From Phaeotremella fagi (taxonomy: Eukaryota; Basidiomycota; Tremellomycetes; Tremellales; Phaeotremellaceae): a stretch of DNA of 64,000 nucleotides. A program made the translations under genes and the position numbers. Position 1 is the first letter of the stretch; each line of letters begins with the position of its first letter. The DNA is taken from assembly GCA_001599715.1 (NCBI GenBank), contig BCHU01000011.1:744001-808000 (forward strand), written 5' to 3'. Positions 5,584-61,916 of this stretch are shown here, one piece after another. The notes below the pieces were generated by a model. It saw only the letters and a program-made list of their open reading frames with translations. It did not search any database and had not been told where the DNA came from.

Positions 5584-6801
5584 ATGTCTACTTGCAGTTA
5601 TTTCTTCGAAGACGGCTTCAGAAATGTTATCGACGCCGACTCAATCGGTATAACCTGGAATACAAGAATCGTAGTCACCAACCAAGAAACCGGGAAACAT
5701 ACTATCGTCGCCGCCACTAATCATTTTCCATCTTACCTCATGGAACAGCAAGACCTTGAAGCTCTAGGTCAAGTAGAATTTAGTCATCAGTCAGTATTCG
5801 ATTTTGTTCCAGAATACGAAGCCAGTGCAGACTTCTTATCTGAAAACAGAGACCGTCTTTTGAAAATCCTTTCAGGTTTAGTCATGAGTTCTTTCATTAT
5901 TGATAGTTGTCTTCAGAATATGTTAGGTGATGGCTTGAATCTCAAACAACGGAACGAGGTTTGGCACGAATCGATCTACAGAATCACTCACAAGCTATCA
6001 AGCAATAGACAGACATTCAGAAAAGAACTACTTTTAAGATACGAAGAATATTTCCCTGATGATTCGGAAAAAGTCTATATCTTGATTCAACATCCTGATG
6101 GTCAGACTTATGGAAACGGTTACGCCTCCAGAATTGCAGGACATGAGTTTTTATCAGAAGATCAATTATTAGAACTGGTCGAAATTTATCATTCTAAGAT
6201 GAACAAATTTCGAAAACTAGAAAAGACAGCCGCTCTCTTGGACTGTACTTTCAACGACGCTCAAGCCTCTCTCGATTGTGTTCCTTGTTTGGAAGAATTG
6301 GTAAGTGTATTCATACTTTACAGTACACCATCGTTCTGATTGACTACTGAATAGATCAATAAATCTTTGCTGATGAGGTTGGGCCCGGAGGGTATGTGTT
6401 CTGAGTTTTTCGAATCAGTCGAGGGATCTATGTGAATGGGAGTGGGTGACAAAGGTGTGAAAGAAGATATTGACTCGTTTTGATTATTTTTTGTACATAC
6501 ATGCAAACATTGCTTTGCCTTCGTTGACTCAACTACAGTTGTCCAGTGTGGCGGCAACAAGTCAAATGTACAAGTACTTGTACAATCCGATGGCAATCCC
6601 TTCATCGTTCCATTGTACGATAGGAAGTCTCGGTATAGTGTCATTGCACAACTAGAGACATCTGTCGGGAAAAGGGGGTTTCGAGCAGAAGGCTTCGGAG
6701 AAGACATTTGGACTCAGTTCCAAAAAGTGAGGCAACGGATTATCTTTTCTCTCTTCTTTACAACCATTTTTCGCCACCAACAATTTTCAACCTTCAACTA
6801 A
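5584..6801 (+). CDS. Unrecognised protein, three exons, next to a tandem family
   Basis: Exons 5584-6300, 6355-6391 and 6539-6801 give 338 residues. The frame is kept across a 54-nt and a 147-nt intron. I recognise no domain. The N-terminal part has beta-like strands (GITWNTRIVVTNQETGKH), then helices around residues 90-165, then a KVYILIQHPDGQTY strand. Exon 3 begins VVQCGGNKSNVQVLVQSDG and includes a conserved-looking FGEDIWTQFQKV stretch. The last 25 or so codons are Phe/Thr/Gln-rich and overlap what looks like the pyrimidine-rich leader of the next gene. The stop is only 31 nt before that gene's ATG, so the true C-terminus may differ. A relationship to the four paralogs downstream is not evident. 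Confidence 0.6.
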
Positions 6802-6832: not shown

Positions 6833-7375
6833 ATGAGCAATAGTAGTACGACCGTCAATACCGACACTCCCACCTACAAAGATCTACCGAATGATTATGT
6901 CGTCTCAAAAGCCTCTAAAGAATTATGGAAAGAGCTTCCAGTACTACAAGACATTTTCGGTGATTCAGACAAATTCGAATGGGATGGCAAGGAGACTCTT
7001 GTTTTCACCAAAAGAACCGATCCGTCTTTCCTCGTCATCTCAGTCCTAAGCAAACAATCAGAAGATTCAGTCGATGAAGTCTTTCCCGATCATCTCGAAA
7101 TGGAATATCACATGACTAGATGGTTCAACGAAGAAAAAGAGATCAAGTCATTCGGGACAAAATTTTTGGCTCCCCCAAACTCATCTTCTGCGGTAATCTC
7201 CAAAGTAGTCAAATTATCGGTAGCTGTTGCTTCAGCGACTTCAACACTTGAGGGACTAGACGATCTTTCGAAAAGAGCTAGAAGAGAAGTACTTTTGTGG
7301 CTGAAAAAGGATGAGGCCAATTCAGTACTTTCTGAGATTGGTCGAGAAACTGTAAATTCTAGCTTGTATAAATAG
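6833..7375 (+). CDS. Tandem family member 1 (180 aa, unknown function)
   Basis: Single-exon gene, first of four head-to-tail paralogs. It shares the family pattern: an opening YVVSKASKELWKEL (position of YTVFxxFDDLW in members 3 and 4), then LVFTKRTDPSFLVISVLSKQ around residues 55-74, then a C-terminal signature LWLKKDEANSVLSEIGRETVNSSLY. There is no signal peptide, no membrane segment and no catalytic motif I know. It is highly diverged from its neighbours (roughly a quarter to a third identity by eye), yet length and signature positions are kept, which argues for purifying selection on a fold. It begins 31 nt after the stop of the preceding gene. Confidence 0.8.
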   Translation: MSNSSTTVNTDTPTYKDLPNDYVVSKASKELWKELPVLQDIFGDSDKFEWDGKETLVFTKRTDPSFLVISVLSKQSEDSVDEVFPDHLEMEYHMTRWFNEEKEIKSFGTKFLAPPNSSSAVISKVVKLSVAVASATSTLEGLDDLSKRARREVLLWLKKDEANSVLSEIGRETVNSSLYK

Positions 7376-7814
7376 TGGTATTGGCTCTTTACATAGTCGT
7401 TTAAGTTCTGTTGTTTATATATTTGGAGAGAGAATGCATAGAAGGTATTTACTTTCGTCACGGGATTTATGCACTTGAAAGCTTTTGGATGGGATTATTA
7501 TAATCATGCAAGTATTGATATTTTATTATCATGGCAGGATATCAGGGGTTTCTCTTTTCCCGAAGAATGTCAGTGCGTCGGGAATGGGGTTGGCAATCGG
7601 CATATGTGTCTCATAATAAACGGTCTGAGTAGTCCATCAAGGACTTACATCCATTGTTCCATGTCTTCGTAGGCTCCAACTACGTATATGTTTTGAGAAA
7701 GTTGAGCCAGAAAAGATAGTCCTCGTCTTCTTGGGAGACTTCTCTTTATAACGTCCAATTTCTATCTTTTGCCACCAAACATATTCCTCTACAACGACAA
7801 AATAATAACTTACA
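7376..7814. other. Intergenic spacer between family members 1 and 2
   Basis: This 439-nt gap holds a 3' UTR and a promoter. A short frame at 7469-7672 lacks any family signature and was not accepted as a gene. Confidence 0.5.
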
Positions 7815-8357
7815 ATGAGTGAAATCGTCGCTGAACCCATCGAAGGATCGGCTTGTAAATCCCTACCATATGGTTACATCGTTGCTACCAGTTTTGAAGA
7901 TTTATACGCTGAATTGTCAATTTCAAAAGAGTACTTTGACGGGGCTGAGAAATGGGTTGAAGGAGAATTGCTTTTGTTCACGAAACGTGAGGATCCTTCA
8001 GTTCTTATCGCTTCTGGTCTATCCAAACAAAAAGAAGATTCACCATACTTGGCAAGATATCCAGACATGCTGAGTCAAGAAACTGGGGTGTTCTTTCACT
8101 TCACGGAGTCAAAAATTTGGAAACCATACATAACGCAAGGTCTTCTCCAACCTGGTTTTCCTTCTGAGTTAGTTTCTGAAGGAATGAGAACCCTTCTTCC
8201 TATGTTTTTTCAAGCATTGGACGACCCGTCTGATGATTTGGACATCAAGGCGAAGGATTCTATTCTTCACTGGCTTCAGACTGATGAGGCTAGAATGATC
8301 ACCTCTTATGTTGGCCAGGAAACTGTTAAATCTTCTCTGTGGTCCGGTGGTCAGTAG
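7815..8357 (+). CDS. Tandem family member 2 (180 aa, unknown function)
   Basis: Single-exon paralog. Aligned landmarks are YIVATSFEDLYAELSISKEYF near residues 21-41, LLLFTKREDPSVLIASGLSK near 53-72, then a ARYPDML segment shared with member 3, and HWLQTDEARMITSYVGQET plus SSLW at the C-terminus. It is closest in its C-terminal signature to member 3. Same size and strand as its neighbours with its own intergenic spacer, so independent transcription is likely. No known domain is visible, and I see no sign of decay. Confidence 0.82.
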   Translation: MSEIVAEPIEGSACKSLPYGYIVATSFEDLYAELSISKEYFDGAEKWVEGELLLFTKREDPSVLIASGLSKQKEDSPYLARYPDMLSQETGVFFHFTESKIWKPYITQGLLQPGFPSELVSEGMRTLLPMFFQALDDPSDDLDIKAKDSILHWLQTDEARMITSYVGQETVKSSLWSGGQ

Positions 8358-8701
8358 TAGAGAAATGGGTAGGGGAGGGAAAGTGATATTCGTTGGGTAG
8401 AAAGTGTTATCAAAGGGGATGAATTGAATTTGAATTGGTTAGTGACGAAATGATGCAAATGCGTATGATACTTTGATCTGCTTGAACCACTAGTGTCCCT
8501 TGACACAAGTCCACAATCGCCTTCGCCTCCTGGGCTTTTTCTCTCTCTCTCTTTGATCACTCCAATCTTTCCTTGGTTTAAAGTCGGACACACTCTTCAC
8601 CTTTTCATGAATCAAACTCATCTTCATTTGAAATATCCTCTTTCCCCTTCGACCTCCTCATATCGACATCAACTACCTGAAATCACCTCATAAATATACA
8701 A
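8358..8701. other. Intergenic spacer between family members 2 and 3
   Basis: This 344-nt gap is pyrimidine-rich in its second half (a CT-repeat run near 8540-8552), as expected for a fungal leader. No gene is seen. Confidence 0.5.
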
Positions 8702-9277
8702 ATGAGTGCCACTACCAGAAAAACTGAAAAATCATTAGATAAGACAATCGGTAATTACACAGTATTCAACGAATTCGACGATCTATGGGAAAAATGTCCA
8801 GAACACAAGAGATACCTATTTCCAACTCAAAAAGAATTCCCCTCCGGAGGGGAGTACAACATCTTCACCAAAGAAACGGATCCAACAGTCATCATAGTCT
8901 CGAGATTATCAAAGCCACCAGAGGATTTCAAACTATCTGAACGATACCCCGATCGATATCCCGATCGATTACTGCTGCAAATGGGAGCTATTTACGCCTT
9001 CCTCGACGCCGAAGAAATCAGACTTCACATTATAGATACTCTTGTTGCTCGTCGTTCCACCGAGATATTGATTAGTGATCTCAAATACGTGCTGACTAAG
9101 AGGGTTTCCGCCTTTCTCAGTAACGATTCTGATGAGTTAAATGTTAGGGCTGGAAAACTTTCTCTTGCGTGGTTCGAAACTGAGGAGGCGAGAACTGTAT
9201 TTTCTTATATAGTTGAAGAGACCCTTCGGTCGAAGATATGGGAAAAACAAGAAGGGGGAGTTTCCGAAAGCTCTTGA
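8702..9277 (+). CDS. Tandem family member 3 (191 aa, unknown function)
   Basis: Single-exon paralog and the clearest pair with member 4: both have a GxYTVFxxFDDLW opening, a GEYNxFxKETDPTV core (residues about 51-64) followed by IIVSRLSKPPED, and the C-terminal LAWFETEEARTVFSYIVEET with a terminal W. It is slightly longer because of a C-terminal extension and an in-frame 12-nt duplication that repeats RYPD (around 8940-8970). No membrane segment or known active-site motif is visible. Expression and function cannot be told from sequence. Confidence 0.82.
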   Translation: MSATTRKTEKSLDKTIGNYTVFNEFDDLWEKCPEHKRYLFPTQKEFPSGGEYNIFTKETDPTVIIVSRLSKPPEDFKLSERYPDRYPDRLLLQMGAIYAFLDAEEIRLHIIDTLVARRSTEILISDLKYVLTKRVSAFLSNDSDELNVRAGKLSLAWFETEEARTVFSYIVEETLRSKIWEKQEGGVSESS

Positions 9278-9591
9278 GTAAGAAAGTTGGTTGTGGATGA
9301 AAGTAGTTTCTTCAAAATATTTTGTACAGTAGTGAATGATTAGCTATATCTGTTCACCTTTTCCGGCTGGGATCACCCCTCCTATATGCAGAAAAGACAC
9401 GTTGCAGTACTAGATACTACGTATGGTTGTCGGTGTTATCCCTCAACGTCAGGAGAAGCCCCTCTAACCCTATCCTTTGTTTTATGTATCAATTCACGAA
9501 CAATTCATTACTCGTCTGATTTGCCATCACCCTCTTCCTCCTTCTTTTTCTCTTCCTACCAATCACTTTAATCAGATATTCACTAAACACG
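9278..9591. other. Intergenic spacer between family members 3 and 4
   Basis: This 314-nt gap ends in a pyrimidine-rich leader ahead of the ATG at 9592. The short frame at 9386-9571 shows no family signature. Confidence 0.5.
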
Positions 9592-10143
9592 ATGAGTACC
9601 AATCATTCAACAGGAGGGACCGAGGAATCAAAAGGTATCAGATTAGGTGATTATACGGTATTCAAGAGTTTCGACGATTTATGGTCAGAAATGCCTCACC
9701 ACAAATGTTTTCTGGGTAAAATCGAAAAACAATTCACCAAAGAAGGAGAATACAATTTGTTCGTCAAAGAAACAGACCCAACGGTCCTCATTGTATCTCA
9801 ACTCACCGAACCACCTCAATATTCATCATTTCATCGCGATGTAATCCCCGGCAGCTTAATTGTAAACATGGCTCCGGTATACTATTTCGCAGGCTGCGAC
9901 GAGGTTCGCGCTTATCTTTATGATTTTGAAGTCGGCGGCTGTGGTTCTGTGTATGAACTTACTGGGGCGATTAGAGAGCAGCTAATTGATGGCTATGGTT
10001 GTCTTTTTAGTCAAGCCACTGATGAGATCCGTGCTATTGCTGGGAAGGCTACTCTGGGTTGGTTGAAGACTGAGGAGTCTGAATTGGTACTTTCGTTTAT
10101 TGCTGAAGAGATTACTCTTTCTAGTTTTTGGCAGAGAGAATAG
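9592..10143 (+). CDS. Tandem family member 4 (183 aa, unknown function)
   Basis: Single-exon paralog, last of the array. Landmarks are YTVFKSFDDLWSEMPHHK, GEYNLFVKETDPTVLIVSQL and LGWLKTEESELVLSFIAEE with terminal SSFW. It differs from member 3 mainly in the middle (residues 75-135), where a Gly/Tyr-rich segment (VGGCGSVYELTGAIREQL) replaces the RYPD region. This suggests the central part is the fast-evolving portion while the two ends hold the fold. No known domain is recognised. Confidence 0.82.
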   Translation: MSTNHSTGGTEESKGIRLGDYTVFKSFDDLWSEMPHHKCFLGKIEKQFTKEGEYNLFVKETDPTVLIVSQLTEPPQYSSFHRDVIPGSLIVNMAPVYYFAGCDEVRAYLYDFEVGGCGSVYELTGAIREQLIDGYGCLFSQATDEIRAIAGKATLGWLKTEESELVLSFIAEEITLSSFWQRE

Positions 10144-35158: not shown

Positions 35159-38100
35159 ATGCGTGTCACACTTCTAATCAGTCTCCTACCGTTCCTCGCA
35201 TCTTCCAATGCCTATTTCATCCTTTCCCAACCAATTCTGGAGGTAACCCGATTGGATCCGTGAGTTATCCCTACCACCTATGTCGATTGACACTAAATTG
35301 ATATGGAATATAGGATCGTTAACCCAGGATCTATCTCTTCTCATGTACATACCATAGCTGGTGGATCTAATTTCAACAAACAAATGACCTATAGTTCAAT
35401 GCGTCAAGGGTCATGTACCACCGCTCCAGTTACAGTTGATCTCTCAAATTACTGGATTCCACAATTATACTACTACGATCCAGTCGCTGTCACCTATCAA
35501 GCCATATCAGCTAATTACATGAACGCGTATTACTTGGTAAGAAAAGGATCATCAGGTATCGTCCAAGCCTTCCCAGACGGATTACGAATGATCAGCGGGA
35601 ACCCCAATCGACGAACGTTCAACAGCTCCGATCCCGAATCCCAAGCTATCTCCTACGTCTGTCTAGATTATTCAGGTTCCCATTCAGGTGATCCAGCTTG
35701 GGCCCAACGAAATAATTTCTTTGAACATAATTGTCCACAGGGGATGAGGGCTCAAGTCAATTTCCCACCTTGTTGGGACGGCGTTAATCTCGATTCATCG
35801 GATCATCAATCCCATATGGCCTGGCCTTCTGGTGGAGTCGATGGTGGTGATTGTCCTTCCACTCATCCGGTTCATCTAGTTTCTCTGTTCTACGAATTCA
35901 TCTTTCCAGTTCAGAATTTCCCTTATAACAACGGTAGTATCACTTGGTAAGTGAAATGACTTTTCAGCCTGAGTGGTCAATATTGACGCTTGATCGTTTT
36001 TAGGGTTTGGGCAAACGGTGATACCACTGGATACGGACTTCACGCAGATTTCGTCAACGGATGGCCATCATTGATAAACGGTAGTAATGTCCTTCAAGAC
36101 GCTATCAACCAATGTGACTCCAATAACGGTGTTGGAGGTGAACTTCAAAATTGTCCACCACTAGCTCCTTATTACAACACCAACGCCGGTTCAGCCTGTC
36201 GACCTCAAAACGATTTAGTCAACGAAGACGTCGGTTTGGGTCATACCATCACCCAACTACCAGGTGATAATCCACTTTGGGTCGGTAACGGATCAAAACC
36301 AACTATCGCGGGTTATGTTGAACCCAACACCACCTTCACCGATTTCAAATCAGTCGTCCCTGCTGGATACAACGATGTTGGTTGTATTCAAGACGTCTCA
36401 TCTAGAGCTTTGACTGGCGCAATGATGGTTAGCAGTGGTATGACTAGAGCAGTCTGTGTGGCATTCTGTCAATCTAAAGGATTCCCTCTCGCAGCTATCG
36501 AATACGGTAGTGAATGTTATTGTGATGATCAAATGAGGAATGGTGCTTCCAACACCACCCTTCTGGATCCATCACAATGTTCAATGTCGTGCGCTAACAA
36601 CACCTACGAAACATGTGGTGGAAGTTGGACGATGGAATTGTTCAACAACCCTTCAATGTACGCTTCCGCCACTGCTGCGCTATCAGTGATTCCAGCTGGA
36701 TACGTCGATGTCGGTTGTATAGCTGAAGGACCTAATGGTCGGGCACTCACTGGAGCTTCTTTCAGTAACAGCAACATGACTCGAGGCGCTTGTGTTTCTT
36801 GGTGTCAATCTAGAGGTTTCCCTTTAGCAGGTGTCGAATATTCATCTCAATGTTTCTGCGATAATCAAATGAGGAACGGTGCTTCCAACACCACTTTGTT
36901 GGACCCTTCAAAATGTGGTATGACATGTGCGAACAACACATTCGAGAAATGTGGTGGTTCGTCAACATTGGAATTATTCAACAACATCAACATGTACACT
37001 GTCCCAGTTCAAGTCAATTTTACCGCTTCAACTTCAGTTATACCTTCAGGATACAGTGACACTGGATGTATAGCAGAGGGACCATCCGGAAGAGCTTTAA
37101 CAGCAGCATCGACAAGTAACGCCAACATGACTCGTGGAGTTTGTGTTTCCTACTGCGCCTCTCTTGGATATCCTTTAGCAGGTGTTGAATACAGTCGCGA
37201 ATGCTACTGTGATTTCCAAATGCGAAACGGAGCTTCCAACACGACTTTACTACCATCTTCAAAATGTTCTATTCCATGTGCTAACAACACGGCAGAATTC
37301 TGTGGTGGTTCAAGTACACTTGAATTATTCACTAACCCCTCCCTCTTCCCTGCTCCAATCACTTTACCAACAGGTTGGACATCGAACGGATGTATGACAG
37401 AATCTTCAAGTGGTCGTGCGCTCTCTCAATATTCTTTCACTTCTAGTTCAATGACACAAAATCTTTGTGTTTCGACTTGCGCTGGTAAAGGATACAAATA
37501 CGCCGGTGTCGAATATTCAAGTGAATGTTATTGTGGAAACTCTTTCAATACTGGTTCGGTCGCTGCGGCTAGTACTGATTGTAACATGCTTTGTAGTGGT
37601 GATAGAACTAGTGTTTGTGGTGCTGGAGGTAGATTGACTACTTTTGTCAATACACTCTCGGTTTCGTCTTCGTCTTCGTCAATTGTTTCATCCTCTTCTG
37701 CTTCTTCATCTTCATCGGTTTCCTCTTCAAAACCAGTCTCTTCATCCATCTCTACATCCGCCGTATCATCATCATCATCATCATCGTCATCGTCGTCATC
37801 ATCATCATCTGCCAGTACAACAAGCTCATCAACCACACCCTCAACTTCCTCAGCAGCGGTCGCAGCAGCAATAGGTTGTTTCACAGATTCACAACCTCGT
37901 CTCTTGAACGGAACTTCGTCTTCAGGTTCAACAATGACCAATCAACTCTGTATCTCTACATGCGCACAACAAGGTTACGCTTATGCAGGAACGGAGTACA
38001 CTCAGGTAAGTCATCCTTTCTTTCCGTCCCGATCTATATTTGAAAATCCTTGTTAACGTAATAATAGGAATGTTATTGTGGTAACTACTTAAACAAAGCT

Positions 38101-58315: not shown

Positions 58316-59755
58316 CTATTTCCATTTCCAACCTGGCACCGGTACCAAAATCGCATCCTCCTGATCTTCCGGCTTTTCTGAGAATGTATAAGCTCTGATC
58401 TCAAGATTATCAAAGTGCTGCATCACGACCTTGGATCAGTTCTACGATACTTTCAGAATTAGAACATAGACTTACTTCTACATCACGATATTTACTACCA
58501 GCTACAATTCTCCTATTCATATTATCGTGACCAAAGACTGTTTCTGATCAATATCTGTCACCAGTATTCTGACTTACGAGCAATTCGCGAGTGTTGATTT
58601 CCTTTTGTCATATCTCGAAGCTGTAATCTTACTGCTCGACCTCGATCTCGATAATTTCTATCGTCATAAATCCCTCCTGTGCTGGCATAATTGTCGTCCA
58701 CATATCTATAATCAAATTCGGATTTTCCATAATTCTTGGTTAACCAATGTTGAAGACTTGGTAGTGGAGACAATGGTATACAACACGCCGTACTGAAGAA
58801 AAGGATACGAAACATGTCAGAGAAATGAAGGCAGAAGGAAGGATTAGATGAGATTCATTCATCGGATCCTACTATACCCAAGAACTTTGACAACTCACTT
58901 TGACACTTCTCTTGCTAAGGGTAGAATAGTTCTTCGGATTTTAAGTTCTTGAGGTAGGAGTCCAAATTCTGTTTGAATAGTTCGACGATTCTGTAGAGGT
59001 CATAATGTCAGATTAATCCTTAGACACGCTGTAACGTAGTATCATTGAGGATTCAAATCCCAGACACTTACTCCAGACGAAGCGACATCGGTTAATTCTT
59101 CACTCCATTCTCTGATCATTTCAGAGTGCTCTCGAAGATAATCGCATCCATCCTTTCCTTCGTCCGTGAGCAAGGTATCGGGTTCTAAAACAATACATGA
59201 ATGTTAGTTGAGTTGGTGAATCTGGGGAATGTTATCGAACTCACCGTCGTAGTTTCTTGTTATGCTAAATGAATTTAATGAATCAGTTTGGAAACCAAGG
59301 GAGATTGTAATCAGCTATCTACTTATGTGTTGCGATACCATGCCTGACTACGAATACCACGGGCTTGTCACAGTTTGTTGTAGAAACCTTGCTTCTAGAG
59401 TAAGTTCCGGAACTATCGGAGATTGTTGACCCTGCACTACTGGAGTTTTTACTGCTAGAGCAAGTTTCGGTACTTCCACGGATTGTTGACTCCGAGCTAC
59501 TGGAATCGTTGCTGCTAGAGCAAGTTTCGGATGTTTTGGAAGTGGAGCAGTTTGTCGGAAGATAGGATTTCAGAGAGGATAAAAGGGAGTTTGAGCGAGA
59601 GCTTGGGTGGTAGCTCGAAAGATAGGTGTCGAGAGAGGTTGGAAGGGAGTGTGACCAATAACTTGGGTAGGAATGGGATCTTGTGCAAGCGGAGTAGTTA
59701 CTTGAAAGATTGGTGCTGGGAGGAGATTGAGGGAGCTTGAGCAATTGGAAGACAT
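58316..59755 (-). CDS. Histidine-phosphatase superfamily (phosphoglycerate-mutase-like) protein with Ser-rich N-terminus; start frame uncertain
   Basis: Exons from 59755 to 59323, then 59264-59245, 59184-59072, 58990-58899, 58792-58578, 58543-58476 and 58417-58316. The catalytic RHG is in VVFVVRHGIATHNITRNYDG, followed by an Arg-containing NRRTIQTEF and GHDNMNRRIVAGSKYRD. This is branch-1 histidine phosphatase. The N-terminal 130 residues are Ser/Thr-rich. The frame carrying RHG has no ATG: the only well-placed ATG, 59755, about 85 nt downstream of a TATATAAG on this strand, is in another frame. No intron in this stretch restores it, so the N-terminus is either frameshifted or starts elsewhere. 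The core exons look intact. Confidence 0.65.
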
Positions 59756-60430
59756 TATATGGGTTTTGAGGTATTTTTGTTTTTTTTTGGAAGGGGTTGT
59801 GATTGGATTTACCTAACAACCCGTGCTATATTGACTGTCTTATATATGCCATTCATACAAAGGCTAGCTAAAATTGACAGTTCCCTTCTTTGAGCGAGTT
59901 TCAGCTGAAGTGTCAGCATCAAACTCGGTCGCCATCCAGAGTTTCGGGTGTTGTTCAAAGGTGCCACAATCAAATGCGCTCTTTGTTATCCTTTCTCTTA
60001 CTGAGAGTGGTTAAACTGACTAAATGGATCTGCATGCATATCTGTTTTAAGACTGTTTCACCTGTATCTAGCCATTATGTCTTGTGAACGACCTCTTCTA
60101 TTCGACACATATCCAGTTTATGGCTAAAAGATGGTACACCTGGTTTGGGAAGTCGTGTGGCAATCTACAAGAGGAAGCGGAGAAAGCTGTCTTGTCGATG
60201 TTGCAGCAAAAAAGCGAGCTCTATTCAACAGGCATGCTTTCTTTCACAAGAAGAAATTGAGTATTGAGACAATCTTTCGTGACGATTCGCTCAGTTTGAT
60301 TCTTGGATAAGTTATGGCGATTGATGTAATCAATGCAAGCATCCATATATTGAGTTTCTCCTCATATCCATATCCATACATCTTAACAAATGTTGGCTCT
60401 CGCCCCCTCCATTCTTTTTGTATTCCTTTT

Positions 60431-60946
60431 TCACCCCTCCAGAAACCCCTTGTCAGTGTTTTTTGACTCTGCACTACTGAAACATTTACTGCCAAAGAAG
60501 GTTTTGAAACTTTTAGAGGTGTGGCAGTTGTTCGGAAAATACGCTTTGATTGAGGATCGAAGGGATTTTGAGCGAGAACCTGAGTTGGGTTTCGAACTTT
60601 TGGGATTGGAGCAGCTGGCCGAAAGATAGTCGTCGAGAGCACCAAAACGGGAGTTTGAGCGAGGACTTGAGTTTATCTTGGACCCTTTGGAGGTGGAGGA
60701 GTTGATCGAGAGATAGTCGTCGAGAGCGGCAAAACGGGAGGTTGAGCGGGGACTTGAGTTTGTTTTGGACCCTTTGGAGGTGGAGGAGTTGATCGAAAGA
60801 TAGTCGTCGAGAGCGGCAAAACGGGAGGTTGAGCGAGGACTTGAGTTTGCTTTAGACCCTTTGGATGTGGAGGAGTTGATCGAGAGATAGTCGTCGAGAG
60901 CGGCAAAACGGGAGTTTGAGCCCAGACTTGAGCGACCGAAAACCAT
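60431..60946 (-). CDS. Truncated duplicate of the phosphatase 5' end: Ser-rich repeat protein without phosphatase domain
   Basis: Open frame of 171 codons from ATG at 60946 (MVFGRSSLGSNSR). It has its own TATA (TATATAAG, plus-strand 61039-61048 read in reverse). It carries four 29-residue repeats of the type SRFAALDDYLSINSSTSKGS and a degenerate fifth, then the SSAES element also found in the neighbouring phosphatase. It then stops at KGFLEG where the upstream flank of the duplication is joined. There is no RHG phosphatase domain. The frame is intact, so it may be expressed, but it could equally be a decaying by-product of the duplication. Confidence 0.5.
   Translation of the reverse strand: MVFGRSSLGSNSRFAALDDYLSINSSTSKGSKANSSPRSTSRFAALDDYLSINSSTSKGSKTNSSPRSTSRFAALDDYLSINSSTSKGSKINSSPRSNSRFGALDDYLSASCSNPKSSKPNSGSRSKSLRSSIKAYFPNNCHTSKSFKTFFGSKCFSSAESKNTDKGFLEG
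60545..60925 (-). repeat. 87-bp tandem repeat, four copies, in coding frame
   Basis: The motif CGTCGAGAGC recurs at 60631, 60718, 60805 and 60892, exactly 87 nt apart. The 87-nt unit codes for 29 residues, preserving frame. Copies 2-4 are almost identical while copy 1 is more diverged, so the array is growing from one end. A related degenerate unit lies in the neighbouring copy near 59570-59660. Confidence 0.85.
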
Positions 60947-61916
60947 TCTGTATTCTTCGAGTGATTTTGTAAGACTTGTGGTTTATTTTGGAGGGGTTGT
61001 GATTGGATTTGCCTATCAATCTACAATACATTGAGTCTCTTATATATGACATTCACAAAGGCTAGGGAAATTTGACAGCTACCTTCTTTTCTTTGAACGA
61101 GTTTCAGCTCAAGTCTCAGCATCAACCACCGTCAACATCCTGTTTCGTGGGTTGCTCAAAGGTGCCACATTGAGTCAACTCCGCCTCTATGTTATCCTTT
61201 CTCTTAACACTGAGAGTGATAAGACTGACTAAATGGATGTGCATACCTGTTTCTTTGTATCTGTTTCACCTGTACCTAGCCATCATGAATTATTTCAAAA
61301 AGGAGGAAGCCGTTCTCTAAAGGACAGGGATTCGAGTTGATGGCTGAAAAGACGGTACACCTGGTTTGAATAGTTGTGTGGCATTTATGACAGGTAGCGG
61401 TCAAAGCATGGTCGAGGTTGGAGCGAGAAGGCCAGTTCCACTCAAATGATATGCATTTCCTCACAAGAAGAAGCTGGATTGAGTACAGAGATAACCTTTC
61501 GTGACTCCCGGCTCAGTATGATTCTGCACTATGTACAGTGGGTAAGTTTGTGGCGAATGATGCAACCAAGGCAAGCCTACATATGTATATCGAGTCTCTC
61601 CTCATATCCATATCCATGCTTCTCAACAAATGTCGACTCTCACCCCTTCCATTCTTTACATTTGTTCTTCATCCCTCCAGCGACTCCTTAATCTACCATC
61701 CTGCATACAACTAGACCGTGAGATCAAGTCTGATTTCTACCTCCTTCGCAATCGAGATATTATCCAAGAGCAGTCCTTGCATCAAACCTGGTCCAGGGTA
61801 GCCACGATGAGGGAAGGGGATGCAAAACTTCTTACTGAGCTGAGAGTGTATCGAAGATGAAGAATCCATTTCATAAATGCTTGAGTTCTGAACTAAAACC
61901 CTCCCATTCCCGTGGA
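60947..61916. other. Upstream flank of truncated copy, duplicated DNA
   Basis: About 970 nt, mostly the second copy of the duplicated segment (see repeat entry). No additional gene is accepted. A 76-codon frame at 61630-61860 shows no known content. Confidence 0.45.

Follow-up and report, generated by a model that had tools for sequence, protein, structure and literature searches.

A dispersed, tandemly arrayed gene family without visible introns and without recognised relatives in Phaeotremella fagi

The 64,000-nucleotide stretch of DNA analysed here (the window) corresponds to positions 744001-808000 of contig C11 in the Phaeotremella fagi genome assembly (22.6 Mb, 24 contigs). Close to its 5' end lies a head-to-tail array of four single-frame open reading frames (ORFs) that belong to one protein family (Table 1). 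An earlier note had given their coordinates, strand and lengths of 180, 180, 191 and 183 codons, all of which are exact on re-derivation; each ORF starts with MS, has no inner stop and ends in a stop codon. Pairwise identity among the four members ranges from 26% to 40%, and members 1 and 2 are 35% identical, yet have 0 exact 5-residue words in common. According to leave-one-out profiles, the four members score 76-97 bits, a level that none of the 500 shuffles attains for any of them, and searches of the genome itself give E-values between members from 1.0e-36 to 7.7e-8. The alignment has 24 columns that are invariant in all four proteins, including the Y, V, K, DP, S, L, W, E, and S of the motifs that the note had written down as a two-ended signature. 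The exact motifs are looser than proposed: (Y/F)xVxxxFxDLW occurs in 2 of the 4 members, KxxDPxxxIxSxL in 3, and WLxTxEAR in 1.

Table 1. Window array and genome-wide clusters of the family. Plain coordinates are window positions; those with a contig prefix are contig positions. pLDDT, predicted local distance difference test; pTM, predicted template modelling score; aa, amino acids.
Feature	Coordinates	Strand	Details
Member 1 (C11w_1)	6833..7375	+	single-frame ORF, 180 aa, stop included in coordinates; codon frame 0 best of six
Member 2 (C11w_2)	7815..8357	+	single-frame ORF, 180 aa; AlphaFold best pLDDT 81.4, pTM 0.80
Member 3 (C11w_3)	8702..9277	+	single-frame ORF, 191 aa; AlphaFold best pLDDT 82.2, pTM 0.79
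Longest fast-diverging stretch of member 3	8972..9151	+	residues 91-150; block identities 13-23%
Member 4 (C11w_4)	9592..10143	+	single-frame ORF, 183 aa; nearest is member 3 (40%)
Cluster	C11:750.7-754.1k		4 copies; window array
Cluster	C11:156.7-158.3k		2 copies
Cluster	C4:917.0-918.9k		2 copies
Cluster	C8:225.8-233.3k		6 copies
Cluster	C13:285.7-288.6k		3 copies
Cluster	C13:453.4-455.7k		3 copies

The four ORFs are real, but describing the array as four-membered undercounts the family, which has 20 supported copies in six clusters on four contigs (C11, C4, C8, and C13). This tally comes from a 17-member profile run over 1874 ORFs from fetched regions of the genome, and it is a lower bound because scoring in the genome search is limited to the top candidates. 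Copies lie head to tail, with uniform strand within every one of the six clusters. The clusters are connected by a chain of matches, in which member 3 leads to C4 and member 1 to C8 and C13; C13:285k and C11:157k were then reached with a C8 member, and C13:288k with a C13 member. Open ATG-to-stop frames are found in 17 of the 20 copies (163-228 codons). The other 3 are disrupted or startless: a TAA lies inside C11:157.6-158.3k, the frame is broken at C13:288k, and C13:285.7k has no ATG before the N-terminal landmark. Broken copies beside open ones represent birth and death of copies. As for C4_2, its frame is open but without the N-terminal landmark, and an in-frame stop lies immediately upstream.

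The 17 profile members match the profile by construction; independent support is given by the leave-one-out test, in which 17 of the 18 tested members exceed all 500 shuffles. The three copies outside the profile score 61.5, 53.9, and 34.1 plus 20.9 bits. The exception in the leave-one-out test is C8_6 (C8:231721-232503), a doubtful ORF inside the C8 array that keeps the landmarks by eye. It was not counted as a 21st copy: it scores 6.3 bits, a level attained by 8 of 500 shuffles, and 5.8 bits with the 17-member profile. The alignment, tree, library scans, codon and hydropathy tests were performed on 18 sequences, i.e. the 17 open copies and C8_6. Further candidates were rejected at no more than 4.5 bits with the 17-member profile, namely C14:244494 (a dynamin-like ORF by eye), C13:716391, C6:1544824, C6:1339093, and window 59519-59740, which lies antisense to a Ser-rich ORF. 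Scanning the DNA with a pattern built on the N-terminal landmark returned 445 and 394 matches, below the reversed control (551 and 534).

Judging from the DNA sequence, the members are without visible introns in their ORFs: a donor-branch-acceptor pattern composed of generally known motifs is absent from the ORF in 15 of 18 members, and one or two are present in the remaining three. The untranslated parts may nevertheless hold introns. An intronless family of such size is unusual, since in the related annotated Cryptococcus genomes introns are reported for 99.5% of 6795 coding genes, with five to six per gene (PMC8022950). Both results bear out the earlier remark that such a family stands out in this genome. 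The multi-exon structure ascribed to the neighbours is also true for the two genes checked, a Nop53 gene (four tblastn blocks) and a DUF1996/WSC gene, whose domain is distributed over two ORFs. The family probably descended from an intronless founder; the retroposition of such a founder, which the earlier note had suggested, is conjectural. Regarding later copies, the head-to-tail order in all six clusters and the non-random distribution of the cluster label on the tree favour tandem duplication of DNA: the label needs 7 changes on the tree of 18 members vs a shuffled mean of 10.1, with 0 of 200 shuffles as low. An older dispersal followed by tandem duplication in place fits this pattern better than repeated retroposition, although the tree is weak.

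Sequence divergence within the family is considerable, with the eight pairs examined differing at 54-74% of aligned residues. The Nei-Gojobori method (NG86) yields non-synonymous distances (dN) of 0.48-0.86 and synonymous distances (dS) of 1.17-2.44, dN being lower than dS, in the 6 of 8 pairs with defined dS; in the 2 pairs where dS is undefined, dN equals 0.73 and 0.92. Codon use ranks the reading frame best in 15 of 18 members. Computed over 15-residue blocks of gene 3, mean pairwise identity is 49-50% over residues 46-75, 13-23% over 91-150, and 37-43% over 151-180. The AlphaFold models of members 2 and 3 agree in the main order of elements (best pLDDT 81 and 82), which suggests one predicted alpha/beta fold common to both. 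Along with the divergence of the members, these two models support the earlier suggestion of old duplication with a kept fold. In the member 3 model, residues 91-150 span the long helix together with the greater part of the last two strands and the first portion of the helix that comes next. According to their composition, the proteins appear to be soluble and for the most part acidic: 0 of 18 members have a 19-residue window with hydropathy above 1.4, and the isoelectric point is 4.3-6.0 in 17 of 18 members and 8.4 in one. A secreted small effector would carry an N-terminal signal peptide; judged by hydropathy alone, 11-residue maxima near the N-terminus do not exceed 1.0 in 16 of 18 members and reach 1.4 in C8_3 and 1.76 in C4_2.

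The family is unrecognised by every library and solved-structure set searched. None of the 18 members reaches the curated gathering cut-off of any Pfam-A family; at E<=1 there are 10 Pfam families, one member each, all below the cut-off, with the lowest E of 0.003. NCBIfam, PHROGs, PADLOC, PDB sequences, Foldseek-PDB, and BFVD provide no match at E<=0.001. A protein database search yielded 2251 candidates with the four window members, none at E<=0.001, and 2380 candidates with six members, none at E<=10. This search requires common 5-residue words, which 11 of 153 member pairs have and 142 do not, and therefore its negative result cannot show restriction to a lineage. As a control, the Nop53-like ORF of the window retrieved 113 proteins, the named top matches being Tremellomycetes; the best named one is 51% identical (Tremellales sp. 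Uapishka_1), followed by many Kwoniella and Cryptococcus species. This places the host in the Tremellales or near them, as a fungus missing from the database itself. Since the database is rich in Tremellomycetes, close relatives of the family look absent there, while distant ones may exist. No description of the family was found in the literature, judging by title and abstract opening among the matches listed. The statement of the earlier note that no domain matches is in agreement with all these libraries, and the sensitive profile and structure searches that it had named as a possible refutation did not place the four proteins in a known family. Its expression "undescribed system" goes too far in the second word, whereas the family itself stands.

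The constant N- and C-terminal frame, the variable centre, and the many old tandem and some broken copies would fit an intracellular binding repertoire. The reading proposed here, with a probability of roughly 40%, is that the family consists of dispersed, tandemly amplified and diversifying small soluble intracellular binding proteins, which combine a constant scaffold with a variable centre. The N-terminal hairpin and helices would form this scaffold together with the C-terminal helices (the 'WL' region), and the variable binding face would lie on residues 91-150 (long helix and final pair of strands). By analogy with other expanded adaptor and recognition families, each copy may bind a separate partner, and duplication would thereby widen the repertoire of bound molecules. 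F-box, BTB, and MATH proteins are such expanded adaptor families, with a linker domain that binds cullin or SKP1. The family described here resembles them in having numerous soluble copies in tandem, which diverge fast and would pair a constant scaffold with a variable recognition part. However, none of the 18 members has an F-box, BTB, or MATH Pfam match at E<=1, and the likeness is one of way of life only. A further-reaching version would see a hitherto undescribed intracellular recognition repertoire of Tremellales-like fungi, with one new alpha/beta fold, intronless head-to-tail clusters, and a central binding face that diversifies as its partners change, for example viruses, selfish elements or other individuals; this version is speculative and unlikely.

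Several observations weigh against the binding-repertoire reading. Variation extends beyond the centre, which the earlier note had singled out as diverged: residues 91-150 are indeed the longest fast stretch, but residues 31-45 (24% identity) and the C-terminal tail 181-191 (0%) vary too. Rapid change in the centre may reflect relaxation instead of a binding face. Because dS is near saturation, a dN lower than dS tests constraint weakly and is unable to show positive selection. On the tree, just 2 of 15 inner branches are well supported, and the C8, C13b, and C4 groups each form more than one branch (needing 4, 2, and 2 changes, respectively). In addition, codon use does not put the reading frame first for 3 of 18 members, 2 of the 5 AlphaFold models of member 3 are poor (pLDDT 60.0 and 57.8), and C4_2 and C8_7 are supported by 26-28 bits only.

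Among other explanations, one with an appreciable minority chance is that the family belongs to a known fold superfamily, has diverged too far to be recognised by sequence, and has an ordinary cellular role. Candidates are Mog1/PsbP-like, p32/Mam33-like, or other antiparallel-sheet folds. The Mog1/PsbP-like fold has an antiparallel sheet; the likeness lies in a small alpha/beta protein, and several chains of this fold are among the weak structure matches. The p32/Mam33 family, of which Mam33 is mitochondrial, superposes with a root-mean-square deviation (rmsd) near 5, without a sequence match. An ordinary diverged enzyme or adaptor is possible as well.

Genes of genetic conflict (incompatibility, antiviral defence or drive), diversifying against a moving opponent, are a less probable explanation. 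Fungal spore killers or drivers such as wtf and Spok have as their hallmark killing with rescue in a cross. The family is clustered and fast-changing, with disrupted copies, and BTB-like genes flank one of the C13 clusters. However, PADLOC, a library of anti-phage systems only, gives a single weak match, to ThsA (E 0.0066) in one member out of 18, and among the fetched regions, which for two clusters cover about 3 kb, profile matches of BTB-like ORFs occur at one cluster only. Somewhat more doubtful still is an origin by domestication of a protein from a virus or mobile element, or by gene transfer from bacteria, which would explain the lack of introns. With member 3, BFVD has no match at E<=0.001, the best phage record has E=4, and no match appears in bacterial, archaeal, and viral contigs, in a scan that detects close relatives only; PHROGs matches 1 of 18 members (E 0.0017, unnamed family). 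Levivirus coat proteins superpose with an rmsd of about 4-6 over about 90-104 residues, without a sequence match and with unrelated folds at similar Z. Finally, that the open frames are unexpressed remnants, no longer or never genes, is very improbable: three copies are broken or startless (see above), but 17 stay open despite the residue differences in the eight pairs, and codon use points to the coding frame for 15 of 18 members.

As for other genes in the window and near the clusters, a 251-codon ORF lies just 5' of the window array (5584-6339, +); Pfam gives nothing above cut-off for it, and a genome search at E<=1 found no further copy. The gene at window 35297-38056 (+) has a DUF1996 domain and five WSC stretches and is probably a wall or surface protein. 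Ser-rich ORFs are located at window 60431-60982 (-) and 59319-59825 (-), the former with tandem repeats of a unit of about SRFAALDDYLSINSSTSKGSK.NSSPRS. Near the C8 cluster, C8:215.9-217.7k contains two more single-frame ORFs (L039:950-1486 and L039:2251-2748), which are mutually alike by eye, both contain SLL(I/V)PE(L/F)SDRLS(Y/F)VLF, and have no Pfam matches above cut-off. At C13:450.9-456.9k, three ORFs that are BTB-like by eye (L042:5876-8076, L043:1011-1898) flank the three family members, and for one of these flanking ORFs Pfam gives a BTB match that stays below cut-off.

Families that have expanded and diverge fast are often a sign of biology particular to a lineage, and the one described here comprises 17 or more genes with an open frame and no visible intron, in a lineage that has introns in nearly every annotated gene. 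It offers a possibly new fold and a clean case for how intronless genes arise and persist in this group, and it supplies candidates for roles in recognition or conflict.
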